The position numbers and the translations under genes were made by a program. The notes beneath the pieces were generated by a model. The model worked only from the letters and a program-made list of their open reading frames with translations. It was not told the origin of the DNA and did no database searches. This document shows positions 2,585 through 36,054 of a stretch of 43,840 bases of DNA, piece by piece. This DNA is from Coriobacteriia bacterium (GTDB taxonomy: Bacteria; Actinomycetota; Coriobacteriia; Coriobacteriales; Eggerthellaceae), in contig JAUNCQ010000014.1 in NCBI GenBank assembly GCA_030526515.1, positions 1 through 43,840 of the forward strand, given 5' to 3'. Each line of letters begins with the position of its first letter. Within the stretch, counting starts at the first letter, position 1.

Positions 2585-2787
2585 TCGGTGGTCCTTAGTA
2601 GAATGAAACGAGAATTACACTTTTGATGTAATAATAGCTACAACTTACTCTGCAGGCAAAGCAAAATCCCTTTTGGCGGCGGATTTCATACGGAGGATTA
2701 CATAGTCGAGTAATACCGACTAACAAACTAATTAACACTTGCTATCGAATTTCTTAACGATAATGTGTATAATGCTTTACGACGAAA
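2585..2787. promoter_or_regulatory. Divergent promoter region with palindrome and TATAAT box
   Basis: This intergenic stretch separates the Crp-like gene from the riboswitch operon. TTACA (2615-2619) and TGTAA (2627-2631) form an inverted repeat with a 7-nt spacer just upstream of the regulator gene, a plausible autoregulatory site. A consensus TATAAT at 2768-2773 would start the riboswitch transcript near 2780; no good -35 is seen at standard spacing. No small gene is evident. Confidence 0.5.
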
Positions 2788-3002
2788 GACGTGTTGGGCA
2801 GAGTGAAGCGGGTGAGAATCCCGCACGGTACCGCCACTGTGATTCCCCGTGGGGGATGAGTCAGATCCCTGCCCATCCGTGCGAGCCGCGCAGCGAGCTA
2901 CTGCAATGCGAATCGCCTTGCCGGATTAGTGCAATCCCCAGCGTATCCCATGGCCACGCACGGAGCGACCTTTAGGTCGAACGTGCGTGGCCTTCTGTGT
3001 TT
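2788..3002 (+). promoter_or_regulatory. Cobalamin riboswitch with terminator platform
   Basis: The aptamer (about 2788-2885) has the hallmark cobalamin-riboswitch sequences: GGTGAGAATCCCGCAC at 2811-2826, CCGCCACTGTGA at 2831-2842, and the B12-box-like AGTCAGATCCCTGCCC at 2859-2874. TGGGCA (2795-2800) pairs with TGCCCA (2870-2875) to close the fold. The expression platform ends in a strong terminator: GGCCACGCAC (2952-2961) pairs with GTGCGTGGCC (2983-2992), with an inner GCGACC/GGTCG stem and a T-rich tail. Bound cobalamin should therefore stop transcription before the downstream operon. The aptamer looks compact; I cannot tell adenosyl- from methyl-/hydroxo-selective type. Confidence 0.92.
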
Positions 3003-3066
3003 CTGAGGGTTCGAAGCGTCTTTGGAGGGAGGGGGCGAAAGCCCCGAGGATTTGAGAGGAGAAAGC

Positions 3067-5409
3067 ATGAAGTTTTCAACGGCCATGACCGGCACGCGCA
3101 AAATGCTCGCGCTGCTGGTCGCTGGTGCGGCTGCCTTCGGTGCTGCGGGAGCGGTGGCTCTTTCGCCCGTTGCGCAGCAGATGGCATTCGCCGAGGAGTC
3201 GGTGCTTGCCGTTCCTGATGCGGATCGGCTGACGCTCATCGGCGGCAACAACGACGATGGATTCGTGTACTACTACGAGGCCGATCAGGCTTATGAGTCC
3301 ATTGACCTTTCTGCTCTGGGCGATTTCGGCCTGGATTCCATGATCGCCGTCATCAATGGTGACTATTTCGTTGAGGGCTCGGCTACTGCCAGCATTGACC
3401 TGTTTGCTGCTACCAAGGAAGACATTGATGCGGCGAACCTCGGACTCTATGATGATGCCATTGAAGGGCTTGATCTGAACGAGAACGTTTACGTGTTCTG
3501 GTTCATGGACGACGATTATTACTCGGGCTATCTGGTCCTGAAGATGCCGCCTGCTGAGGCCGCTGGTTGCCCGGGCGAAGATCACGACCCTGGCTTCCTG
3601 GTTTCTTCTGAGTCCGGCGTGCGTCAGTTCGAGTCCGTGCATGTGGCGAACTCCTATGAGTACTACGACTACATGGCCAACAAGACCCTGACTGTGTGCC
3701 AGTTCACCGTGAAGATTCCCCAGGGAACCAAAAAGGTGACCATTGACGCCGAGAAGCCGTCCCTGTTCTACAACTACCAGAACGGTCAGTACGTTGCTGG
3801 TTGGGTTGAGGATTACACCCAGGGCGCAGAGTCTGTGACGGTGGACGTTGATGCCAATAACGACGGTACCCTGGACGCCATCCAGGTCCAGGACGTGTAC
3901 AACGCCGACTACAGTGGCGGCGACCTGCGCTATGCCATTGCCTTCGAGGAGATTCCGGCAATCGCTCCGGCCGTCGACGTTGATGCGCTCAAGGCCAACC
4001 TGGCTGCTCGCTTCAGCAAGGGCGGCAGCAATGCGGTCATCGACAACAGCACCTGGGCAGCCGCTATTGCCCTGAACGCTCTGGGCAAGGAGGCCGACAT
4101 TGACGCCGAGGCCATTCTTGCTGATCTGGCAGACCTGGGCGCAGACACCCTGACCCCCGGTCAGCTGGGCAAGTACATCATGGTCCTGACCTCTGCTGGC
4201 GTGGACTGCACCAAGGCCAAGGTCGGCGAGTCCGAGGTCGACCTGGTCCAGATGCTGAAGGACGGCGTTAAGGCCAAGGTCGACGGCGGCAAGGCCATTG
4301 ACGAGTGTTCCGCACCGTGCATCGTTCCGGTATTCGGCTGCTGCGGCTATGACGCAACGGGCTTCGAGACTTATCTGCAGGGCATGATCTCCACCATGGT
4401 CAAGAAGGTTCCGAGCCTGTATGAAGGCTGGGGCTCCATTGACGTCATGAGCACCGGTCAGGCCGTCCTGGCTCTAATTCCCTATGCCGAGGAGGACGAT
4501 GAGGTTGCTACTGCTCTGGGCGAGGCCTTTGACGCACTGATGGACCAGCTGCAGGAGAACGGCAGCTTCCCGACCCAGTGGGGCAACGGCGTTGACGATA
4601 CCGCCCTGGGCTATGCCGCTGTGAAGGCTCTGGGTGCTGACGACCTGGACCTGTTCACCGCCAGCGGCGCACATCCGCTGAGCTTCCTGGCCTCCAAGGC
4701 CAAGGAGACGGCTGACGGCTTCAACGTGAGCGGCGAGGCCCTGAGCGCCTCCAGCGCTCTGCTGGCCCTGGCTGCCGCTGAGGTCGACGGTCCCGTGTAT
4801 CAGGTCCAGAAGCCCGAGGCTGACGACCCCGATGAGGGTGACGAGGGCGATGAGGGAGATGGCAAGGACCCCGACGAGCCTGCTGACATCAAGCCGGGCC
4901 CCACGCCCCTGAAGTCTGCAACTGTGAGCGCTGCGACCAAGCCCTACAACGGCAAGTCCCAGGCTCTGAAGATCTCCGTGAAGGGCGCCGACGGCAAGGC
5001 CCTGGCGGCAGGCGTGGACTATACCCTGAGCCGCAAGACCGTGAAGTACGTGGGTACCTACAAGATCAAGATCACCGGCAAGGGCAAGTACGGCGGCATC
5101 CTGACCAAGTACGTGAAGGTGAACCCGGCCAAGGAAGGCATGGATTACGCCAAGGCTGGCAAGAAGCGCGCCCTGGTGAAGACCACCAAGTCCGCTGCCA
5201 AGTGCGGTGCCACCAAGATCCAGTTCGCCTACAAGAAGGTCGGCGCCTCCAAGTGGAGCTACAAGACCGTCAAGGCAAGCAAGACCTATCTGACCAAGCT
5301 GAGCAAGGGCAAGCGCTACTACGTGAAGGCCCGCGCCATCAAGGTCGTGAACGGCAAGACCTACAAGGGCGCTTGGAGCGCCTGCAAGAAGACTGCCAAG
5401 ATCAGGTAG
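3067..5409 (+). CDS. Secreted alpha/alpha-toroid protein, candidate corrinoid-capture subunit
   Basis: A 780-residue exported protein. A signal peptide (1-42, ending AFA before EES) is followed by an aromatic-rich beta domain of unknown family (about 45-298). Next comes a helical-repeat region (about 303-572) that reads like a prenyltransferase/squalene-cyclase-type alpha/alpha toroid (STWAAAIALNALG, DVMSTGQAVLALIPY, VDDTALGYAAVKALG). Intrinsic factor and transcobalamin use this class of fold for their alpha domain. An acidic linker (583-612) leads to an MBG-like repeat (about 615-687) and a lysine-rich fibronectin-III-like C-terminus (about 700-780). There is no LPXTG motif or C-terminal membrane anchor. 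The ATG at 3067 follows GAGGAGAAAGC; an upstream in-frame start at 3022 lacks such a site. It is the first gene of the B12-riboswitch operon. Corrinoid binding is inferred from fold and context. Confidence 0.75.
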   Translation: MKFSTAMTGTRKMLALLVAGAAAFGAAGAVALSPVAQQMAFAEESVLAVPDADRLTLIGGNNDDGFVYYYEADQAYESIDLSALGDFGLDSMIAVINGDYFVEGSATASIDLFAATKEDIDAANLGLYDDAIEGLDLNENVYVFWFMDDDYYSGYLVLKMPPAEAAGCPGEDHDPGFLVSSESGVRQFESVHVANSYEYYDYMANKTLTVCQFTVKIPQGTKKVTIDAEKPSLFYNYQNGQYVAGWVEDYTQGAESVTVDVDANNDGTLDAIQVQDVYNADYSGGDLRYAIAFEEIPAIAPAVDVDALKANLAARFSKGGSNAVIDNSTWAAAIALNALGKEADIDAEAILADLADLGADTLTPGQLGKYIMVLTSAGVDCTKAKVGESEVDLVQMLKDGVKAKVDGGKAIDECSAPCIVPVFGCCGYDATGFETYLQGMISTMVKKVPSLYEGWGSIDVMSTGQAVLALIPYAEEDDEVATALGEAFDALMDQLQENGSFPTQWGNGVDDTALGYAAVKALGADDLDLFTASGAHPLSFLASKAKETADGFNVSGEALSASSALLALAAAEVDGPVYQVQKPEADDPDEGDEGDEGDGKDPDEPADIKPGPTPLKSATVSAATKPYNGKSQALKISVKGADGKALAAGVDYTLSRKTVKYVGTYKIKITGKGKYGGILTKYVKVNPAKEGMDYAKAGKKRALVKTTKSAAKCGATKIQFAYKKVGASKWSYKTVKASKTYLTKLSKGKRYYVKARAIKVVNGKTYKGAWSACKKTAKIR

Positions 5410-5424
5410 CGGTCTGCTGAACCC

Positions 5425-5464
5425 GTCCGGCCCGCAGCCCGAATATGCAGGTTGCGGGCCGGAC
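5425..5464 (+). other. Intercistronic hairpin between toroid and DUF4430 genes
   Basis: GTCCGGCCCGCA (5425-5436) is perfectly complementary to TGCGGGCCGGAC (5453-5464). There is no following T run, so mRNA stability or partial attenuation between the abundant secreted subunit and the lipoprotein/transporter genes is more likely than full termination. Confidence 0.6.
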
Positions 5465-5490
5465 GTTCGCGTGTACGAGGAGAAGAGATC

Positions 5491-6351
5491 ATGAGCAAAA
5501 CGGTAATGCTACGTGCGGTGGCCTTTGCAGCAGCGGCTGCGCTGGCGCTCTGCCTGGGCGGTTGCGGATCGCCCAACGTCGAGGAGCCTGCAGGGGCCAC
5601 GGCACCGGATACCGCTCAGGAGGAGTCGGACGAAGCCGATCCCGCAGAGGCTGAAGCAGGGGGCGAAAACGCCGATGCGGAGGTTGAGCAGGCGGAGATC
5701 GACGAGGAGTCCGACGAGCCTTCCGCAGACGATGACGCCGAGGAGGCCGACAAGGCTGACGCCGAGGAATCTGACAAGGCCACGGCGAAGGCCGATAGCA
5801 AGAAGGACGCGTCTGCAAGCGACTCGAAGTCCTCGAGCAAGGCTTCGTCCTCAACCAGCAAGAAGGCGGCCTCCGAGGCTGACTCGAAGAAGACCAGCAG
5901 CAAGAACTCCGCGTCCAAGAAGGAGCCGGCGAAGAAGCCTGCGGCCAAGCCCAGCAAGGAGCCTGCCAAGAAACCGTCTTCGGATTCCACGGGCGGTTCC
6001 AGCTCCACCACGCCCAGCAAGCCCGATCCCGTCCCGAGCGCTCCGGAGCCCACGGGCGTGACGGTGACCGTCAGCATTGACGGCGCGGGCTTTATTTCGC
6101 CCGTCACCAATAAGAAGGTGCAGCTGGAGGAAGGCGCCAGCGTGTTCGATGCCTTGAAGAAGGTGGCCACCACCATCGGCGGCAACAAGCGTTATGTGAG
6201 CGCCATCAACGGCCTGGCTGAAAAGGACCACGGCAACCTGTCCGGCTGGATGTACGACGTCAACGGCGAAACCCCCATGATCGAGTGCGGCAAGTACGAG
6301 CTCAAGGACGGCGACGTGGTGAAGTGGTACTACGTCAACGTGGAGAAGTAG
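5491..6351 (+). CDS. DUF4430 lipoprotein, transcobalamin-like beta-domain subunit
   Basis: A 286-residue lipoprotein. The signal peptide ends in the lipobox LGGC, with the lipidated cysteine at about residue 25. Residues 30-185 are a low-complexity stalk rich in Ala, Glu, Asp, Ser and Lys that would span the cell wall. Residues 189-286 are a DUF4430 domain with the typical SGWMYDVNG (251-259) and DGDVVKWYY (273-281) motifs. DUF4430 is related to the C-terminal beta domain of transcobalamin and intrinsic factor. The start at 5491 follows GAGGAGAAG. The gene ends four nt before ecfT, so it is tied to the transporter. I infer that it presents corrinoid to the S component, possibly with the toroid protein. 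Confidence 0.85.
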   Translation: MSKTVMLRAVAFAAAAALALCLGGCGSPNVEEPAGATAPDTAQEESDEADPAEAEAGGENADAEVEQAEIDEESDEPSADDDAEEADKADAEESDKATAKADSKKDASASDSKSSSKASSSTSKKAASEADSKKTSSKNSASKKEPAKKPAAKPSKEPAKKPSSDSTGGSSSTTPSKPDPVPSAPEPTGVTVTVSIDGAGFISPVTNKKVQLEEGASVFDALKKVATTIGGNKRYVSAINGLAEKDHGNLSGWMYDVNGETPMIECGKYELKDGDVVKWYYVNVEK

Positions 6352-6354
6352 CGC

Positions 6355-7263
6355 GTGACCAGGACCGTCTTCAATACGTATCATCCGCTGGTTGCCGCCA
6401 CCTATCTGGTGGCGGCGCTGGCGTTTACCATGGCGGCGTTCCATCCGCTGTTCCTGGCGCCGTCGCTGCTGGTGGCGCTGGGGTACAACGCCTGCCTGAA
6501 GGGGCCGCGGGCCACGGCTCGGTCCCTGGCGTGGCAGCTGCCCCTGGGCCTGGTGATTGCCCTGGTGAACCCGATCTTTTCCCAAAGCGGCTCTACCATT
6601 CTGTTCATGTGGGGCGAAAGCCACGCCTATTACCTGGAGAGCCTGTGCTACGGCGCCTGCATGGGAGCCATGCTGGTGGCGGTCATGGTGTGGTTTTCCA
6701 ACTTCAGCCACATCATGACCAGCGACAAGATCATGCAGCTCACCGGCAACGTGGCGCCGACCCTGGGCCTGATGATCACCATGATCCTGCGGCTGGTTCC
6801 CCAGTTCGTCCGCCGGGGCGGCTCGGTGGGCGCGGTCCAGTCGGTCTGCACGGCGGCATCTGCCGGCGCGGCGGGGGAGGAGCCGGCGACGGGCGGCTTT
6901 TTCGCCCGAAAGGCAGCGCAGCTGCAGGGGAGCATGCGCAACATTTCCGTCCTGATGGGCTGGGGCATGGAGGACTCCCTGGACACGGCCGAGTCCATGC
7001 GCGCCCGCGGCTGGGGCGCGGTGGGGAAGCGCACCACGTATAGGCGCAACGACTTCCGCGCTGCCGACGGCGTGGTCATGGCCGTGCTGGCGGTGCTCAT
7101 TGCCGTGAGCGCCTGGTGCGCGGTGACCGCGTGCTCGTGCTTTACCTTCTACCCGCGCATGTCCACGGCCAACGCGCTGTGGTGGGGATACTATCCGTAC
7201 GTTGCGCTGCTGCTGATGCCGGTTGCGCTTGAGCTGAAGGAGCGTGCCGCATGGCGCAACTGA
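6355..7263 (+). CDS. ecfT: ECF transporter transmembrane component EcfT
   Basis: A 302-residue membrane protein with hydrophobic segments at about 10-45, 58-78, 95-116, 132-150, 235-262 and 278-295. A long cytoplasmic helical region carries the EcfT coupling motif ARGWG at about 217-221, within DTAESMRARGWG, which contacts the ATPases. It starts at a GTG three nt after the lipoprotein stop and overlaps the ATPase gene by 13 nt, so translation is coupled. An insertion rich in Gly and Ala (about 163-182) precedes the coupling helices. The role is to link substrate binding to ATP hydrolysis in an energy-coupling-factor importer, here dedicated to one substrate because its S component lies in the same operon. 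Confidence 0.9.
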   Translation: MTRTVFNTYHPLVAATYLVAALAFTMAAFHPLFLAPSLLVALGYNACLKGPRATARSLAWQLPLGLVIALVNPIFSQSGSTILFMWGESHAYYLESLCYGACMGAMLVAVMVWFSNFSHIMTSDKIMQLTGNVAPTLGLMITMILRLVPQFVRRGGSVGAVQSVCTAASAGAAGEEPATGGFFARKAAQLQGSMRNISVLMGWGMEDSLDTAESMRARGWGAVGKRTTYRRNDFRAADGVVMAVLAVLIAVSAWCAVTACSCFTFYPRMSTANALWWGYYPYVALLLMPVALELKERAAWRN

Positions 7264-8735
7264 CCAAGGACCCGGCCATTCGCGTGAGGGACTTCCGCTT
7301 TGCCTACAGGCTGCCGGACGGCTCCGCGGGCGCAGACGTGGTGGGTCCCGTGGACTGGACCGTCGAGCAGGGGGACTTTGCCCTGCTGGTAGGGGGCACG
7401 GGCTGCGGCAAGACCACGCTCATGCGCAACCTGAAGCCGGAGCTTGCTCCCACGGGCAGCCGCAGCGGCACCCTGGAGCTGCTGGGCATGCCGGCGGACC
7501 AGATGGACGCCGTGACCTCCGCCCAGACGGTGGGGTACGTTTCCCAGAGCCCCAGCAACCAGATCGTGTGCGACTCCGTGTGGCACGAGCTGGCCTTCGG
7601 CCTGGAGAACCTGGGCACGCCGGTGGCGGAGATGCGCCGTCGGGTGGCCGAGGTGGCGCATTTCTTCGGCATAGCCCCGTGGCTTGACCAGTCCACGGAC
7701 GCCCTGTCCGGCGGCCAGAAGCAGCTGCTGACGCTGGCAAGCGTGCTTGCCCTTCGCCCCAAGATCCTGCTCCTTGACGAGCCAACCAGCCAGCTGGACC
7801 CGGTGGCGGCCAAGAACTTCCTGCATGCCCTGTTCCGCGTGAACCGCGAGCTCGGCCTGACCGTGGTGGTGGTCACCCATGAGCAGGAGATGGTGGCCGA
7901 GTACGCCACGTCGCTGTTCCGGATGGAGGACGGCGCCGTGGTGCAGCATGACCTGGAGGAGTACAGGTCCCAGGTCCGCCAGCGGGCGGCGTCCGTGGAC
8001 TACGCTGCGGTGTGCGCGCCCGAGCCTGAGGGGACGAAAGACCCCGTAGTGACCCTGCGTGACGCCTACGTCCGCTATGCCCGGGAGCTCCCCTTTGTCC
8101 TGCGCGGCCTTGACCTGGAGCTGCGACCCGGCACCGTGCATGCCCTGGTAGGCGGCAACGGCTGCGGCAAGTCCACGCTGCTGGCCTGCCTGGGCGGGTC
8201 CCTGCGGCTGGACCGCGGCAAGCTTCGCAACGACCTGCGCAGCTGCCAGGCGCTGCTGCCCCAGGAGCCCAAGACCCTGTTCGTGCGGGACACCGTGGCC
8301 GAGGAGCTGGCCGAATGGCAGAAGGGCTGCGGCTACACGGACGCCGACGTTGCCCGGTGGGTGGAGCGTTGCGGCCTGCAGGACTTGATGAGGCGGCACC
8401 CCTACGACTTGTCCGGCGGACAGCAGCAGCTGCTCGCCTTCTGCAAGGTGGCGCTGACCCGCCCCCGGCTGCTCATGATGGACGAGCCCACAAAGGGCCT
8501 GGACAGTAGCTACCGGCTGATCATGGCCGACGTGCTGACGGAGCTGGCGGCGGACGGCGTGTGCGTGCTCATGGCTACCCACGACCTGTCCTTCGCGGCG
8601 CGGGTTTCCCAGGTTACGTCGCTGCTGTTCGATGGGCAGATTGCCTGCACCCAGCCCACCGCTGACTTCTTCCGGGAAAACCTGTTCTACCGGCCCACGG
8701 TGGACCGCTTCTTCACGGACTGGAGGCGCCCATGA
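7251..8735 (+). CDS. ecfA: Fused double ATPase of ECF transporter (EcfA-EcfA')
   Basis: A 494-residue protein holding two ABC ATPase domains. Domain 1 has Walker A GGTGCGKT (48-55), signature LSGGQ (152-156) and Walker B LLLDEP (173-178). Domain 2 has Walker A GGNGCGKS (301-308), signature LSGGQ (387-391) and Walker B LLMMDEP (407-413). Most ECF systems encode EcfA1 and EcfA2 separately; fusion occurs in dedicated systems such as YkoEDC. The ATG at 7251 lies inside the ecfT end, and the stop overlaps the next gene's start by four nt (ATGA). Both sites look catalytically complete. It powers the membrane complex from the cytoplasmic face. Confidence 0.93.
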   Translation: MAQLTKDPAIRVRDFRFAYRLPDGSAGADVVGPVDWTVEQGDFALLVGGTGCGKTTLMRNLKPELAPTGSRSGTLELLGMPADQMDAVTSAQTVGYVSQSPSNQIVCDSVWHELAFGLENLGTPVAEMRRRVAEVAHFFGIAPWLDQSTDALSGGQKQLLTLASVLALRPKILLLDEPTSQLDPVAAKNFLHALFRVNRELGLTVVVVTHEQEMVAEYATSLFRMEDGAVVQHDLEEYRSQVRQRAASVDYAAVCAPEPEGTKDPVVTLRDAYVRYARELPFVLRGLDLELRPGTVHALVGGNGCGKSTLLACLGGSLRLDRGKLRNDLRSCQALLPQEPKTLFVRDTVAEELAEWQKGCGYTDADVARWVERCGLQDLMRRHPYDLSGGQQQLLAFCKVALTRPRLLMMDEPTKGLDSSYRLIMADVLTELAADGVCVLMATHDLSFAARVSQVTSLLFDGQIACTQPTADFFRENLFYRPTVDRFFTDWRRP

Positions 8736-9439
8736 GCGCGGGCAAGGCCACGGGCGTGCTGCAACGGCTGGAGGTGCCGGCCCTGGTGCTGGTGCCGGCC
8801 ACCCTGCTGGGCTGCGCCTACCTGCAAATCGACCAGGCAGCCCTGCTGACCATGCTGGTGGCGCTGCTGTGCCTGATGGTGTTCTTCGCCGGCTACGAGC
8901 GCTCCCGCCCGCCCCTGAAGCAGATCATGCCCACGGTGGTGCTGGCAGCGCTGGCTGCGGCGGGTCGTATGATCTTCGCCCCGATCCCGGACTTCAAGCC
9001 GGTGAGCGCCATCGCCATCATTGCCGGCGTGGTGTTCGGCAAGCGCTGCGGCTTCATGGTGGGAGCCCTGGCGGCGCTGGTCAGCAACTTCTTCTTCGGG
9101 CAGGGTCCCTGGACCCCCTGGCAGATGTACGCCTGGGGCCTGATGGGATACATGGCCGGCGTGCTGGCCAGCCACGGCGCCTTCAAGCGGCCGGCGGTGC
9201 TGTACGCCTACGGCTTCCTGGCGCCGTTCCTGGGATACGGCCTGATCCTGAACAGCTGGTACGTGGTGGGCTTCGTCCATCCGCTGACCTGGCCCGCGGT
9301 GGTGGCGGCGTTCGCGGCCGCGGCGGCCCTGGACCTGACCCACGGCGTAGCCACGGTGGTGTTCCTGCTGGCCCTGTACGAGCCCTGGAAGCGGAAGCTC
9401 CAGCGCATCAAGAACAAGTACGACCTGATGCTGGGCTGA
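8732..9439 (+). CDS. ECF transporter S component, likely cobalamin-specific (CbrT-like)
   Basis: A 235-residue membrane protein with about six hydrophobic segments. The stretches AALAAAGRMIFAPIPDFKPV (about 70-89) and NFFFGQGPWTPWQMYAWG (about 116-133) are typical of the S-component group that includes CbrT, the experimentally known B12-binding S component of Lactobacillus delbrueckii. It is the last gene of the riboswitch operon, coupled to the ATPase by ATGA. With the riboswitch and the DUF4430 lipoprotein, cobalamin or a related corrinoid is the best substrate guess. Family assignment is from recalled motif similarity, so another vitamin cannot be excluded by the protein alone. Confidence 0.85.
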   Translation: MSAGKATGVLQRLEVPALVLVPATLLGCAYLQIDQAALLTMLVALLCLMVFFAGYERSRPPLKQIMPTVVLAALAAAGRMIFAPIPDFKPVSAIAIIAGVVFGKRCGFMVGALAALVSNFFFGQGPWTPWQMYAWGLMGYMAGVLASHGAFKRPAVLYAYGFLAPFLGYGLILNSWYVVGFVHPLTWPAVVAAFAAAAALDLTHGVATVVFLLALYEPWKRKLQRIKNKYDLMLG

Positions 9440-10250: not shown

Positions 10251-11744
10251 ATGGCCGGCAAGTACATCATCGCCCTGGACCAGGGCACCACCTCGTCCCG
10301 CTCCATGCTCATCGACCACGACGGCAACCCCGTTGGCTCCGTGCAGCGCGAGTTCCCCCAGATCTACCCGCAGCCGGGTTGGGTCGACCATGATCCGCAG
10401 GACATCATCGCCACCCAGCTGGGCACCTTCACCGAGCTGCTGACCCAGTACAACGTGCATCCGGAGGACATCGACTCCATCGGCATCACCAACCAGCGTG
10501 AGACCACCATCATCTGGGACCGCCAGACCGGCGAGCCCATTGCCAACGCCATCGTGTGGCAGTGCCGCCGCACCGCTGACGTGATCAACGAGATCTGCGG
10601 CGACGACCAGGAGGTCTTCGACCAGATCATCCAGCGCACCGGCCTGCGCCCGGACCCGTACTTCAGCGCGTCCAAGGCCAAGTGGCTGCTGGACAACGTC
10701 CCGGGCGCCCGTGAGCGCGCCGAGCGCGGCGAGCTGTGCTTCGGCACCGTGGACACCTGGGTGCTGTGGAACCTGACCGCCGGTCGCGTCCACGCCACCG
10801 ACACCACCAACGCCAGCCGCACCATGCTGTACAACATCCACACCTGTGAGTGGGACCCGTACCTGCTAGACCTGTTCCAGATTCCGGCTTCCATGATGCC
10901 CGAGGTCAAGCCCAGTGCCTCCAACTTCGGCGCCACCGCCAACCCCAACCTGCCCCAGGGCATTCCCATCTGCGGCATTGCCGGCGACCAGCAGTCCGCC
11001 CTGTTCGGCCAGTGCTGCTTCGACGCGGGCCAGGCCAAGAACACCTACGGCACCGGCTGCTTCTTCCTGATGAACACCGGCACCGAGGCCCCGGTTTCCC
11101 ACAACAACCTGGTGACCACCATCGCCGCATCCGCCCCGGGCGAGCCCGTCAAGTACGCTCTGGAGGGCTCCGTGTTCGTGGCCGGCGCCCTGATCCAGTG
11201 GCTCCGCGACGAGCTGGGCATTGTTGAGAAGGCCTCCCAGACCGAGGCCATGGCCCTTTCCGTTGAGGACAGCAACGGCGTGTACATCGTGCCTGCCTTC
11301 ACAGGCCTGGGCGCACCCTATTGGGACTCCGAGGCCCGCGGCCTGATCTGCGGTCTGACCCGTGGTGCCAACCGCAACCACATTGCCCGCGCGGCGTTGG
11401 AGGCCCTGGCCTATCAGATGGCCGACCTGTGCGAGGCCATGGAAGCCGACGCCGGCGCCCCCATGGCGGTGCTCAACGTGGACGGCGGCGCCTCTGCCAA
11501 CAACTTCCTGATGCAGTTCCAGTCCGACATCATCGGCACCCCGGTCCGCCGCCCCCAGAACACCGAGACCACGGCCCTGGGCGCTGCGTTCCTGTCCGGC
11601 CTGTGTACCGGCTTCTGGAACAACACCGACGAGCTGCGCGCCCTGCGATCCGCCGACGACGTGTTCGAGCCCAAGATGGCCCAGGACAGGGTGGACGAGC
11701 TGCTGGCCGGTTGGAAGAAGGCCGTTGCCCGCGCAACCATGTAG
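10251..11744 (+). CDS. glpK: Glycerol kinase
   Basis: A 497-residue FGGY-family kinase, the usual glycerol kinase length. It has the N-terminal ATP-site motif [10 protein letters not shown] (about 8-17), [11 protein letters not shown] (about 82-92), the [13 protein letters not shown] segment (about 242-254), and the C-terminal [19 protein letters not shown] (about 407-425). It phosphorylates glycerol to sn-glycerol 3-phosphate. The ATG at 10251 follows AAAGGACC; a longer in-frame start at 10176 has no comparable site. The glycerol channel gene glpF lies 19 kb away, so the two are not an operon. An octamer (TTTCGTCC at 10190) sits in the upstream region. Confidence 0.96.
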
Positions 11745-11751
11745 CGGAACA

Positions 11752-11840
11752 GGGCGAAAGGGGCTTTCGTCCCGCGCAAAATCTGCTTTGTTTCAAACTT
11801 GTACTTTTTCAGGGACCGCGTCTCAAGGCGCGGTTCTTTT
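11752..11840 (+). terminator. Octamer hairpin and terminator after glpK
   Basis: Two hairpins follow the stop. GGGCGAAAG (11752-11760) pairs with CTTTCGTCC (11764-11772) across a 3-nt loop and is made of two inverted copies of the abundant octamer. GGACCGCG (11813-11820) pairs with CGCGGTTC (11829-11836), followed by TTTT, and is the likely terminator. Confidence 0.7.
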
Positions 11841-11888
11841 GGGTTACCCTATGCCATGTTCAATAATCTCTAGTTCAGGAGGGTGAAT

Positions 11889-12329
11889 ATGAAGGTCAGC
11901 ATCGCCAGCGACCATGCAGGCTTCGAGCAGAAGCAGATGCTCGTGGAGCACCTGAAGTCATCAGGTCATACGGTGATCGATCGCGGTCCGGACTCTGACG
12001 ACCGAGTCGACTACCCGGACTTCGCCGAGCTGGTTGCCCGTGACGTGGTTTCGGGCGAAGCAGAGCGCGGCGTCCTGGTCTGCGGCACCGGCATCGGCAT
12101 GGCCATCGCAGCCAACAAGGTCGACGGCATCCGCGCCGCCAACATCGTGTCCGCCGAGTTCGCAGCACTGACCCGTGAGCACAATGACGCCAACGTCATC
12201 ACCGTCTCCGGTCGCTTTGTGAGCGAAGAGGACAACCGCACCATCGTAGACACCTTCTTGACCACCGAGTTCGCAGGCGGACGCCATGCGGGTCGCGTGG
12301 AAAAGATCATGGCACTGGAAGGGAAGTAA
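11889..12329 (+). CDS. rpiB: Ribose-5-phosphate isomerase B
   Basis: A 146-residue RpiB/LacAB-family protein. The N-terminal SIASDHAGF (about 4-12), the active-site [14 protein letters not shown] (about 65-78) with its catalytic cysteine, and [10 protein letters not shown] (about 97-106) are diagnostic. It interconverts ribose 5-phosphate and ribulose 5-phosphate in the non-oxidative pentose phosphate pathway. The ATG at 11889 has GGAGGG five to six nt upstream; an in-frame GTG at 11883 overlaps that site and is unlikely. It ends four nt before glyA, suggesting a two-gene operon that joins pentose metabolism and one-carbon supply. Confidence 0.95.
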
Positions 12330-12333
12330 GCAC

Positions 12334-13581
12334 ATGGCTATGCAGTATGTTTCTCAGACAGATCCTGAGGTAGCCGAAATCATCAACATGGAACTGGAGC
12401 GTCAGCGCGACTGCATCGAGCTGATCGCCTCCGAAAACATCGTCAGCCCCGCCGTCATGGAGGCCATGGGCAGCGTGCTGACCAACAAGTACGCTGAAGG
12501 CTACTCCGGCAAGCGCTACTACGGCGGCTGCGAAAAGGTCGACCTGGTGGAGGACCTGGCCATCGAGCGCGCCTGCAAGCTGTTCGACGCCAAGTACGCC
12601 AACGTGCAGCCCCACTGCGGCGCCAACGCCAACCTTGCCGTGTACTTCGCCCTGTGCCAGCCCGGCGACACCATCCTGGGCATGAGCCTGGACAACGGCG
12701 GTCACCTGACCCATGGTTCCCCGGCCAACTTCTCCGGCAAGCTGTACAACGTCATCGGCTATGGCGTGGACGAAAACGAGGTCATCGACTACAAGGAGAT
12801 CGAGAAGCTGTGCAAGAAGCACAACCCTCGCATGATCATCGCCGGCGCCAGCGCCTACCCCCGCGCCATCGACTTCGAGCGCATTGCTGAGATCGCCCAT
12901 GGCTACGGTGCCTACCTGATGGTCGACATGGCCCACATTGCCGGCCTGGTCGCCGCTGGCCTGCATCAGAACCCGGTGCCCTACGCCGACGTGGTCACCA
13001 CCACCACCCACAAGACCCTGCGCGGTCCCCGCGGTGGCCTGATCCTGACCAACAACGCCGTCATTGCCAAGAAGATCAACTCCGCCGTGTTCCCGGGCAG
13101 CCAGGGCGGCCCGCTGATGCACGTGATCGCCGGCAAGGCCGTCGCCTTCGGCGAGGCCCTGAAGCCTGAGTTCAAGACCTACCAGGAGAACGTGGTGAAG
13201 AACTGCGCTGCTCTGGGCAAGGGCATGATCGACGGTGGCCTGCGTCTGGTCTCCGGCGGCACCGACAACCACCTGTGCCTGGTTGACCTGACCCCGGCTG
13301 ACGTTACCGGCAAGGACGCTGAGAAGCTGCTGGAGTCCGTGGGCCTGACGGTGAACAAGAACACCATCCCCAACGAGCCCCGCAGCCCGTTCGTCACCAG
13401 CGGCATCCGCGTGGGCACCGCAGCCGGTACCACCCGCGGCCTGAACGAGGAGGACTTCTACAACGTGGGCTCCTACATTGCCGCCACCGTGTTCGGCAAG
13501 GATGACCCGGCCAAGCTGGCTCAGATCAAGGCTGACGTGCAGAAGATCATCGACGCACACCCGCTCTATCCGGAGCTGTAG
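12334..13581 (+). CDS. glyA: Serine hydroxymethyltransferase
   Basis: A 415-residue PLP enzyme of normal length. It has [36 protein letters not shown] near 29-64 and the PLP lysine in [14 protein letters not shown] (about 220-233). It converts serine and tetrahydrofolate to glycine and methylene-tetrahydrofolate, the main one-carbon entry point. The start at 12334 (MAMQYVSQ) follows GGAAGGGAAG; longer in-frame starts would run into rpiB. It is co-directional and nearly contiguous with rpiB. Two hairpins follow the stop. Confidence 0.97.
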
Positions 13582-13656
13582 CCGAAAATACCCCTTTCGG
13601 GATTACCCGAATGATGCAAAATAACGAGGCGGGCGCCATGTCCGCCTCGTTTATTT
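13582..13656 (+). terminator. Terminator region after glyA
   Basis: A small hairpin CCGAAA (13582-13587)/TTTCGG (13595-13600) directly follows the stop. A strong terminator follows: CGAGGCGG (13625-13632) pairs with CCGCCTCG (13642-13649), then TTTATTT. Confidence 0.8.
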
Positions 13657-13699
13657 ATGCAAGAATACCCAGGTCGGAAACAAGAACAGGGAGGATCCG

Positions 13700-14176
13700 A
13701 TGGATATGGAACATCGACCCAGTTGGGACGAGTACTTCATGTCCCTTGCCCACACCGTCGCATCGCGCACCACGTGCCTGCGCCGCGCCGTGGGTGCGGT
13801 GATCGTGAAGGACAAGCGCATCCTGGCCACGGGCTACAACGGAGCGCCCTCGGGTGTGGAGCACTGCGCCATCACCGGGTGCCTGCGCCAGCAGCTGGGC
13901 ATTCCCAGCGGCCAGCGCCATGAGCTCTGCCGTGCGCTGCACGCCGAGCAGAACGCCATCATCCAGGCGGCCCGCCACGGCGTGAACATCGACGGTTCCT
14001 CCATCTACATCACCACCCAGCCCTGCGTGCTGTGCGCCAAGATGCTCATCAACGCAGGTGTGAAGGAGGTCCTGTTCGCGGAAGGATATCCCGACGAGCT
14101 TTCGCTGAGCATGCTCCTGGAGGCCGGCCTTCGGCTGTACACCTTCAAGGACGGGGTCCGCACCCCGGTTGAATAG
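13700..14176 (+). CDS. Deoxycytidylate deaminase-family protein (ComEB-like)
   Basis: A 158-residue zinc-dependent cytidine/deoxycytidylate deaminase. The catalytic motif HAEQNAI (about 79-85) supplies the zinc histidine and catalytic glutamate, and [11 protein letters not shown] (about 105-115) gives the two zinc cysteines. The extra [23 protein letters not shown] segment is typical of dCMP deaminases, which make dUMP for thymidylate synthesis. The protein is often called ComEB because of a gene-order link to competence operons elsewhere; no competence genes are seen here. The start at 13700 follows GGGAGGATC. It stands alone between the glyA terminator and the ATP synthase operon. Confidence 0.9.
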
Positions 14177-14336
14177 GGGACGAAAGGGCAGTTGGCAAGG
14201 GGTTGTTGCTCCCGCCGAAAAAAAGATGTCCGTTCGCCTACAAAATCGGCGCATGTGTGTTTTATGCGAAGGCGCTTGCTAATCTTTATTAGGTTTAGTT
14301 TGGAAGTCGTCCGTACTTACGAGGTAGTAGTAGTAA
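14177..14336 (+). promoter_or_regulatory. Upstream region of the ATP synthase operon
   Basis: This AT-richer stretch must carry the operon promoter, but I cannot place -35 and -10 boxes with confidence. A small hairpin CTAAT/ATTAG lies at 14279-14292, and an octamer GGACGAAA lies at 14178-14185 just after the deaminase stop. Confidence 0.4.
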
Positions 14337-14618
14337 ATGGTAATTGCGGTTATAGCTGGCATTTTGATTGGCGTCCTGGGTGCCGTGCCGCTGTTCGTGG
14401 CCTCTAAGAAGGTTCGCAAGATCAGCGCCACCAGCTCCATGGACATGCTGGCTCCCTTCCTTATCACTATGGCCATCTCCTTTATCGTACTGATTTGCGG
14501 TATGATAGTGTGTCGCGTCGCGTTCCCCGAGATGGCGAAGTTCTTCACCATCGCGGAGTTCGCGGCTTTTGTTATCTCAGTTTTCCTTTTCGGCATTTCG
14601 GTGTCTAAAAGAATGTAG
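14337..14618 (+). CDS. Small membrane protein at the AtpI position of the ATP synthase operon
   Basis: A 93-residue protein with three predicted membrane segments (about 1-22, 38-62 and 69-90). A basic loop (KKVRKISATSS, about 24-34) separates the first two. It lies 20 nt before atpB, the place usually held by AtpI (subunit I), which aids c-ring assembly or Mg2+ handling. Sequence similarity to AtpI is not obvious to me, so I name it by position only. The ATG at 14337 is preceded by GAGG and a run of TAG triplets, giving a rather distant binding site. Confidence 0.7.
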   Translation: MVIAVIAGILIGVLGAVPLFVASKKVRKISATSSMDMLAPFLITMAISFIVLICGMIVCRVAFPEMAKFFTIAEFAAFVISVFLFGISVSKRM

Positions 14619-32215: not shown

Positions 32216-33154
32216 ATGAGCGAGATTCGCGTTCCTGGCACTCCCAATGACAAGATCGCCCAGATTCTGAAGACCATCCCGCAGGAGGTCATCGACGGCA
32301 CCCTGACCACCGGCTTCCCCTTCCCGCCGGCCATGGACGGCATCCGCGTCCTGGTCCTGGGCTGCGGCGCCGGCCGTGACGCCTACATTGCCTCCGCCCT
32401 GGTGGGACAGGATGGCATGGTCATAGGCGTCGACCCCGATCCGGAGAAGATCGCCGTGGCGCGCAAGGCCGCTCCCGCCAACTGCCAGTTCCTGGTCCAG
32501 GAGCTCGACAACCTGGAGGCCCTGGTGGATGGCGAAATCGACCTGGTCATCTCCAACTGCGGCATCTCCGCTCCCATCAACACCCAGGCCGTGCTGGACG
32601 AGATCTGGCGCGTGTCCGCCTACGGCGCCGAGCTCTTCGCCTGCGATATCTTCGCCGACCGCCGCATGCTGCCCTACATCAAGGCTTGCCCGACCAAGCG
32701 TGCCGAGGGCACCGGCTCCGCCCTGTACATCGAGGACTTCCGCCGCTGCATGACCAAGGCCGGCTGGGAGGACTTCCGCCACATGCGCACCGTCCTGGCA
32801 ACCACCGACGATCCGCTGTTCGAGGGCATCACCTTCTTCGCCCGCACCGTCCGCGCCTACAAGATGCCGGATAAGATCGAGGACCTGTGCGAGCAGTACA
32901 ACCAGGTTGCCACCTACAAGGGCGGCATCGAGGGCTGCGAGGACTACTACGACCTGGACGACCACCATCGCTTCGTCAAGGACGAGCCCCTGGAGGTTTG
33001 CGGCAACTCCTGCGCCATGGTCCAGGACACCCGCGTGGGCAAGTTCTTCGAGGTCACCGGCAACCGCAACGTCCACTACGGCCCGTATCCCGGCTGCGGC
33101 AACATCCCCTACACCGCAGACGACGGCTCCGTGGAGACCAGCAGCTGCTGCTAA
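32216..33154 (+). CDS. ArsM-like SAM-dependent methyltransferase
   Basis: A 312-residue class I methyltransferase. Motif I is LVLGCGAGRDAYIASALVG (47-65), with the acidic loop GVDPD at 71-75 and VISNCGIS at 111-118. The C-terminal half follows the layout of bacterial arsenite methyltransferases: ATYKGGIEG (232-240), LDDHHRF (247-253), VCGNSCAMVQDTR (261-273), and a final GPYPGCG and Cys-rich tail SSCC. In ArsM enzymes the SNC-type cysteine binds trivalent arsenic; it is kept here (C115). Arsenite methylation is a good hypothesis, but no ars resistance gene is adjacent. The start follows AAAGAGG. The DUF5714 gene downstream is a likely partner, though a terminator lies between them. Confidence 0.7.
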   Translation: MSEIRVPGTPNDKIAQILKTIPQEVIDGTLTTGFPFPPAMDGIRVLVLGCGAGRDAYIASALVGQDGMVIGVDPDPEKIAVARKAAPANCQFLVQELDNLEALVDGEIDLVISNCGISAPINTQAVLDEIWRVSAYGAELFACDIFADRRMLPYIKACPTKRAEGTGSALYIEDFRRCMTKAGWEDFRHMRTVLATTDDPLFEGITFFARTVRAYKMPDKIEDLCEQYNQVATYKGGIEGCEDYYDLDDHHRFVKDEPLEVCGNSCAMVQDTRVGKFFEVTGNRNVHYGPYPGCGNIPYTADDGSVETSSCC

Positions 33155-33311: not shown

Positions 33312-34037
33312 ATGGCGGGAGCGCTTCCCAACTGCCTGATCTGCGGGGCCGACCTGGTCTACGCGTCCGAGTCCACCCTGCATACCTGCGCCGTGTGCGG
33401 CAAGGAGGAAATGGGCACCACCGCCTGCGAGGGCGGCCACTACGTGTGCAACACCTGCCACAGGCAGGGCGGCGTGGACTTCATGCGCAAGCTGTGCGTG
33501 CTTTCTCGCTCCAAGAACGCGGTGGAGATCCTGACCCAGGCCATGGAGGACAAGTCCGTCTACCCCAACGGCCCCGAGCACCATACCATGGTGGGCGCGG
33601 CGCTGCTGACGGCCTACTACAACGCCGGCGGCAAGATCGGCGGCGGCCGCATGACCAAGGGCGATGCCCTGAAGGAGCTCCAGGCCCGCAGCATGCAGGT
33701 CCCTGGCGGCACCTGCGGCTTCTGGGGTTGCTGCGGCGCGGCTACCAGCGCCGGCCAGGCCCTGAGCATCATCAACGGGTCCACGCCCCTGAAGCGGGAC
33801 GAGTGGGGCCAGTGCCAACGCCTCACCTCCACCATCTTGGGGCACCTGGCGGACCAGGGCGGCCCTCGCTGCTGCAAGCGCACGGGCTACACCGCGCTGC
33901 TGGACGGCACCGACTTCCTGAACGAGCACTTCAACGTGCGCATGGAGCGCCCGGAGTCCGTGACCTGCCGCTTCAGAGCCGGCAACAAGCAGTGCCTGCG
34001 CCGGGAGTGCCCGTACTTCCCGAAGAAGGGGGAGTAG
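33312..34037 (+). CDS. DUF5714 cysteine-rich protein
   Basis: A 241-residue protein of unknown biochemical role. The N-terminus holds zinc-ribbon-like cysteine pairs (CLIC at 8-11, CAVC at 26-29, CNTC at 46-49). The DUF5714 core follows, with PEHHTMVGAALLTAYYNAGG, VPGGTCGFWGCCGAA and GGPRCCKRTGY, and the C-terminus adds CRFRAGNKQCLRRECPYF. Many conserved cysteines suggest metal, Fe-S or metalloid chemistry. Such proteins are, as I recall, often found beside SAM methyltransferases, as here. The start at 33312 follows AAAGGAG. An inverted octamer pair (33229-33255) lies upstream. Confidence 0.8.
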   Translation: MAGALPNCLICGADLVYASESTLHTCAVCGKEEMGTTACEGGHYVCNTCHRQGGVDFMRKLCVLSRSKNAVEILTQAMEDKSVYPNGPEHHTMVGAALLTAYYNAGGKIGGGRMTKGDALKELQARSMQVPGGTCGFWGCCGAATSAGQALSIINGSTPLKRDEWGQCQRLTSTILGHLADQGGPRCCKRTGYTALLDGTDFLNEHFNVRMERPESVTCRFRAGNKQCLRRECPYFPKKGE

Positions 34038-35837: not shown

Positions 35838-35994
35838 GCTGCTTTTAATGAAGCAGTAACGAACAACCAGTTCCGCTGCCAAAGACAGCCGGTACCGAAA
35901 GGTTTAATCGCACCTAGTGCGGCCCGCCGAGGTGGTCGAAGAAAGTTAGCGCTTATCGACCCCTGCTGTCCTAGGACGGCAGGGGTCGTTTTTA
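35838..35994 (+). promoter_or_regulatory. Ribosomal L10 leader with attenuator
   Basis: The leader contains the sequence typical of L10 (rplJ) leader RNAs, CCAAAGACAGCCGG and the CCCGCCGAGGTGG region (about 35879-35936), where the L10-L12 complex binds. It ends in a strong terminator: CGACCCCTGC (35957-35966) pairs with GCAGGGGTCG (35979-35988), with an inner GTCC/GGAC and then TTTTTA. Excess L10(L12)4 should promote termination, giving feedback control of the stalk proteins. Confidence 0.85.
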
Positions 35995-36054
35995 TTCGTG
36001 GACGATCCCTCCCACTGCGCGGAACGTGAGCGCATGTGGAAGGAGGTGCACAGT

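Follow-up and report, generated by a model that had tools for sequence, protein, structure and literature searches.

The window analysed here is a 43,840-nucleotide stretch of DNA from a Coriobacteriia bacterium, whose genome comprises 2.4 Mb, is 96% complete and carries the operon under study on its contig 67. In this operon an adenosylcobalamin (AdoCbl) riboswitch is followed by five genes in the same direction, which encode a secreted protein with an alpha/alpha toroid, a lipoprotein with a DUF4430 domain, and the EcfT, double EcfA and S component of an energy-coupling factor (ECF) transporter (Table 1). A reading made earlier from the sequence alone (the original prediction) had described the locus as a B12-regulated operon in which the two domains of transcobalamin are divided over a secreted protein and a stalked lipoprotein serving a dedicated ECF importer. 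All the parts it named were found where it had placed them, with minor corrections, and its interpretation was supported in part.

Table 1. Features of the operon, with positions in the window and the evidence for each.
Feature	Position	Strand	Evidence
AdoCbl (cobalamin) riboswitch aptamer, RF01482	2776..2913	+	cmscan, 55.0 bits (gathering score 50), E 1.7e-7
GC-rich hairpin 3' of the aptamer, possible attenuator/terminator	2952..2992	+	Sequence inspection; minimum free energy fold
Secreted toroid protein, 780 aa	3067..5409	+	Open reading frame, Pfam, profile and fold
Alpha6/alpha6 toroid domain, residues ~303-573	3973..4785	+	Family HMM 2.2e-42; AlphaFold2; VIA-align
Strongly basic C-terminal region, candidate cell-envelope binding part	4882..5406	+	Net +39 over 175 aa; weak MBG match
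Lipoprotein, 286 aa, lipobox LGGC	5491..6351	+	Pfam PF14478 (DUF4430) 3.6e-19
DUF4430/SLBB domain, residues 192-282, predicted transcobalamin beta-domain fold	6064..6336	+	Model, Foldseek, VIA-align
EcfT, GTG start, motif SMRARGWG	6355..7263	+	Family profile A6 against PDB
EcfA-EcfA', fused double ATPase	7251..8735	+	Pfam ABC_tran in two stretches, 4.9e-50; NCBIfam ECF ATPase
EcfS, probable CbrT-type S component	8732..9439	+	Profile A2 against PDB

Riboswitch and gene arrangement

The cobalamin riboswitch of the original prediction was recovered above the gathering score of its family, and a genome scan detected no AdoCbl-II riboswitches in the host. The terminator that had been placed behind it was put too firmly. 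The hairpin is present, with an 11 bp stem plus an inner 5 bp that are also found in the minimum free energy fold, but the T tract that follows (TTCTGTGTTTCTG) is weak, so that a role as terminator is plausible but not strong; a consensus scan gave a result near chance. The toroid and lipoprotein genes are separated by 81 nt and the lipoprotein and EcfT genes by 3 nt, while EcfT and EcfA overlap by 13 nt and EcfA and EcfS by 4 nt. The limit of 4 nt previously given for gaps and overlaps among the last four genes is therefore exceeded at the EcfT/EcfA junction and holds at the others.

The ECF transporter

When ten S components of the window's family were combined into a profile and this was compared with the PDB, the best match was 6fnp_A (ECF-CbrT) with an E-value of 6.8e-15, the next one being at 0.04. 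ECF-CbrT of Lactobacillus delbrueckii (PDB 6fnp) was proven in 2018 to transport B12 and cobinamide (PMC5997447), a role for CbrT having been predicted in 2009 according to the citation in that paper. The S component of the window is thus likely to be of the CbrT kind, and corrinoid transport is predicted for it. It is encoded alongside EcfT and two EcfA domains, the adjoining motor genes that had been claimed. The EcfT protein has no Pfam match, but when the profile of its family was run against the PDB it matched nothing except EcfT chains, with a best E-value of 3.2e-15. The window shares with ECF-CbrT the S component family and the EcfT plus EcfA motor; the L. delbrueckii motor, however, serves many S components, whereas here T, AA' and S form one operon, which in addition includes two surface proteins. 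Among named relatives, an uncultured Eggerthellales bacterium has the S component closest to that of the window (87% identity), which places the window in an uncultured genus of the Eggerthellaceae group; a genome of the same genus (G328) has one that is 86-87% identical, on 3.6-kb contigs only, which are too short for upstream genes.

Alternatively, the substrate of the S component could be some other vitamin, or cobinamide or another corrinoid precursor in place of B12. The best Pfam family of this protein is in fact PF07155, that of riboflavin S components; cobinamide is a substrate of CbrT (PMC5997447), and the CobS and CobU/CobT/CobC genes of the host, described below, would use it. Against this stand the position of CbrT as the sole strong match among solved S components and the recurrence of cobalamin riboswitches at the operon across phyla. 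We consider this alternative improbable by a wide margin: a non-corrinoid substrate is very unlikely, while cobinamide is likely to be one among several substrates.

The DUF4430 lipoprotein

The lipoprotein consists of a lipobox, a long acidic and Ser-rich stalk and a C-terminal DUF4430/SLBB domain. A model of this domain, built with 40 relatives, reached a pLDDT of 91, and in a Foldseek search of the PDB with it ranks 1 to 14 were all transcobalamin or haptocorrin. Aligned with VIA-align to transcobalamin, haptocorrin and intrinsic factor, it gave Z 12.4-14.2 over 92-98 residues with an rmsd of 1.7-2.2, the first unrelated fold being at Z 8.8. The likeness to the transcobalamin beta domain is thus specific, in agreement with what had been predicted. 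Elsewhere in the host (contig 92, 17633-17821), a second DUF4430 lipoprotein is encoded without a riboswitch between two histidine kinase/response-regulator genes.

The secreted toroid protein

The toroid protein is composed of a signal peptide, two beta-rich N-terminal domains, the alpha/alpha toroid, an acidic linker and the basic C-terminal region. Profile comparison of residues 303-573 matched alpha/alpha toroid proteins (squalene-hopene cyclase, 3e-15), and the AlphaFold2 model of the region, with pLDDT mostly >85 and about 12 helices, aligned with transcobalamin, haptocorrin and intrinsic factor at Z 16.3-17.5. Profile and modelled structure therefore both bear out the secreted toroid, but the fold is not specific to corrinoid binders. 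The top VIA-align scores were those of drimenyl diphosphate synthase and of squalene-hopene cyclases, followed by GH105 hydrolases, as would be expected if the toroid were a secreted terpene cyclase or sugar-lyase-like enzyme outside corrinoid uptake. We give such an enzyme very little credence, since the protein is secreted and encoded behind a cobalamin riboswitch in an operon for an ECF B12 transporter, its toroid is fused to DUF4430 in most relatives, and the DxDD motif of the cyclases is not kept across the family. A terpene cyclase in particular was rejected on the secretion, the operon setting and the motif.

No DUF4430 domain was detected in the toroid chain of the window, even by a sensitive HMM scan, so that the two domains lie on different chains encoded by two genes, as originally proposed. 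Residues 27-302, which are predicted to be beta-rich and whose model is of low confidence, were considered as a hidden DUF4430 domain and rejected: there was no Pfam match, the profile-profile probability was 0.4%, and the sensitive HMM scan gave nothing significant. The second half of these residues is found in only two relatives, both from one other genus.

Related basic regions terminate other secreted proteins of the host, and several relatives end in sortase-like motifs instead, so that retention of the toroid protein in the wall through its basic C-terminal region can fairly be inferred; the window's protein itself has no sortase motif. Secreted proteins with this same region, perhaps a common wall-binding part, are also encoded at 10599-14541 of host contig 44.

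Conservation of the operon

Searches for related loci with toroid queries returned nothing usable. The survey was based on 80 S-component loci from named genomes, in Coriobacteriia and Bacillota, 58 of which had enough upstream sequence to be scored. Within the Coriobacteriales the S component is present in 231 of 299 genomes and the toroid in about a dozen. The order [toroid and/or large DUF4430 chain]-[small DUF4430]-T-AA-S was found in Gordonibacter, Slackia, Olsenella, Desulfosporosinus, Paenibacillus, Lutispora and Clostridium. The neighbourhood survey suggested in the original prediction showed a small DUF4430 gene in 50 of the 58 scored loci. Toroid and DUF4430 are on one chain in 13 loci, the toroid chain lacks DUF4430, as in the window, in 6, and a large DUF4430 chain occurs without toroid in 16. 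The remaining 23 have no large partner, and 8 of these are also devoid of the small DUF4430 protein. Split as well as fused forms are thus represented, and what constantly accompanies the transporter is the small DUF4430 protein.

Among the first 20 loci, a cobalamin-class riboswitch was found directly 5' of the operon in five above the gathering score and in four more below it, and cobalamin riboswitches of Bacillota loci scored 81-114 bits. The presence of these riboswitches directly before the operon in many loci makes its assignment to corrinoids strong. Two Desulfosporosinus genomes have two tandem cobalamin riboswitches before the operon (L159, 100-812; L169, 982-1547).

In two Eggerthellaceae (L097, 4875-12029, minus strand; L111, 1-5919) the first gene of the operon encodes one very long secreted protein. 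That of L097, of about 2,400 aa, combines a toroid with six ricin-type lectin repeats and with a domain of the CbiK (cobalt chelatase) family (PF06180, 5.5e-68); it was unexpected to find a domain resembling tetrapyrrole chelatases in a secreted protein of a B12 uptake operon.

Corrinoid use by the host

Besides the riboswitch of the window, one cobalamin riboswitch was found in the host genome, before an operon for glutamate mutase, and the genome also encodes MetH (gene names by inspection in both cases). CobS is encoded as well, with CobU, CobT and CobC-like neighbours. CbiA and CbiP were not detected in this 96% complete genome and seem to be missing, since the best two of three GATase_3 matches, the third being C87, look like MurT-GatD and PdxT. 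The presence of corrinoid-using genes and of CobS, CobU, CobT and CobC, without detected CbiA or CbiP, suggests that the host is a salvager that completes imported corrinoids. As to the usual uptake route, BtuB is not expected because Coriobacteriia are monoderm. The absence of BtuFCD stated in the original prediction is true of the window but does not extend to the whole genome, in which there are 13 FecCD permease domains, none of them at either of the two cobalamin riboswitches found.

In other parts of the window, a ribosomal protein L10 leader (RF00557) was found at 35861-36003 with 45.4 bits against a gathering score of 44, and a gene at 32216-33154 encodes a methyltransferase that by inspection looks ArsM-like, followed by one for a cysteine-rich protein (33312-34037).

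A probable capture-and-import operon for corrinoids

The riboswitch, the folds of the two surface proteins, the affinity of the S component to CbrT, and an operon order conserved together with recurring cobalamin riboswitches, all established computationally, point to a riboswitch-controlled operon for corrinoid capture and import of the CbrT (ECF) kind, a reading to which we assign a probability of about 0.82. Corrinoid use by a host in which CbiA and CbiP were not detected, the published prediction for operons of this kind (PMC1796856) and the B12 transport proven for ECF-CbrT (PMC5997447) also speak for it. Low AdoCbl in the cell would permit expression of the operon through the riboswitch. 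Outside the cell, corrinoid would be bound by the secreted toroid protein, whose basic C-terminal region probably retains the protein in the wall; the stalked DUF4430 lipoprotein would take over the corrinoid, alone or while still pressed against the toroid, and pass it on. The receiving S component would then be emptied into the cell by the EcfT-EcfAA' motor. What we infer for this operon is that both surface proteins bind corrinoid, that it is handed over in this order, that the toroid protein stays in the wall and that the ECF transporter performs the import. The basic role of the small DUF4430 protein is probably the hand-over to the transporter, since it is present in 31 scored loci without a detected toroid in the operon and also accompanies toroid chains that have DUF4430 domains of their own.

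Several observations weigh against this reading. Terpene cyclases, at Z 21, are the best structural matches of the toroid, so that its fold alone is uninformative on corrinoids. Loci of the Collinsella type consist of T-AA-S with neither surface protein, and the surface proteins are therefore not essential to the importer. Finally, FecCD transporters encoded elsewhere in the genome could be importing corrinoid too.

A more specific possibility is that toroid and lipoprotein DUF4430 domain are the two halves of one corrinoid site, as in intrinsic factor. This would be a special case of capture and import, not one exclusive of it, and we regard it as plausible but less likely than not. It agrees with the presence of both folds on separate chains, with the same split in L111, L133, L169, L176, L180, L187 and L092, and with the fact that a small DUF4430 protein is present in every one of the 35 scored loci having a toroid or large DUF4430 chain. 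On the other hand, the toroid-free occurrence of the small DUF4430 protein in the 31 loci mentioned indicates that it works without a toroid, and the majority of toroid loci encode a toroid chain with DUF4430 domains of its own, the lipoprotein being therefore an extra one. Tentatively, a wall-bound toroid might catch corrinoid, the stalked beta domain lock over it, and the complex dock on the CbrT-type S component. If true, this would be a secreted-plus-tethered binding protein divided over two genes and serving an ECF transporter.

Comparison with known systems

As in vertebrate transcobalamin, intrinsic factor and haptocorrin, an alpha6/alpha6 toroid and an SLBB beta domain are found together in the window. 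The vertebrate carriers are one chain with the toroid first, whereas the window has two genes and two chains, which may sandwich the corrinoid. In function the operon would resemble the BtuG/BtuFCD systems of Bacteroides and Escherichia coli, in which a surface lipoprotein captures corrinoid and import is by an ABC transporter. The folds and transporter class of those systems are unrelated to the ones described here, and their hosts need an outer membrane receptor. Annotation systems apply the label 'predicted cobalamin ECF transporter' to a duplicated ATPase together with a membrane protein and a lipoprotein, a usage that was not confirmed in the literature searched.

In 2007 Burroughs et al. 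described SLBB (DUF4430) proteins that are secreted by bacteria and in many cases fused to alpha/alpha toroids. Their operons also contain CbiO- and CbiQ-like genes and frequently encode another extracellular SLBB protein; the authors predicted a function in B12 scavenging, in hosts without key steps of B12 synthesis, and proposed that animals gained transcobalamin from such bacteria (PMC1796856). The operon of the window agrees with this description in having a secreted transcobalamin-like SLBB protein, a toroid and CbiO/CbiQ-like genes together. It differs in that its toroid chain lacks SLBB, the fusion being common in those operons though not required, and it adds a riboswitch and a CbrT-type S component. 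Such systems were thus predicted in 2007 (PMC1796856) and are widespread, and what is new here is narrow: the fully split form with riboswitch and S component, plus the survey. No experimental work on the toroid/DUF4430 surface proteins, including any test of the 2007 prediction, was found in the literature searched.

With the present results that prediction becomes directly testable, and the split form would let the two domains be studied apart. The common view of ECF transporters is that the S component alone catches the vitamin. From Coriobacteriia to Paenibacillus, CbrT-type importers are regularly encoded with extracellular proteins of the two folds of intrinsic factor, which bears on the competition for corrinoids among monoderm gut bacteria and on the proposal that the B12 carriers of animals came from bacteria.

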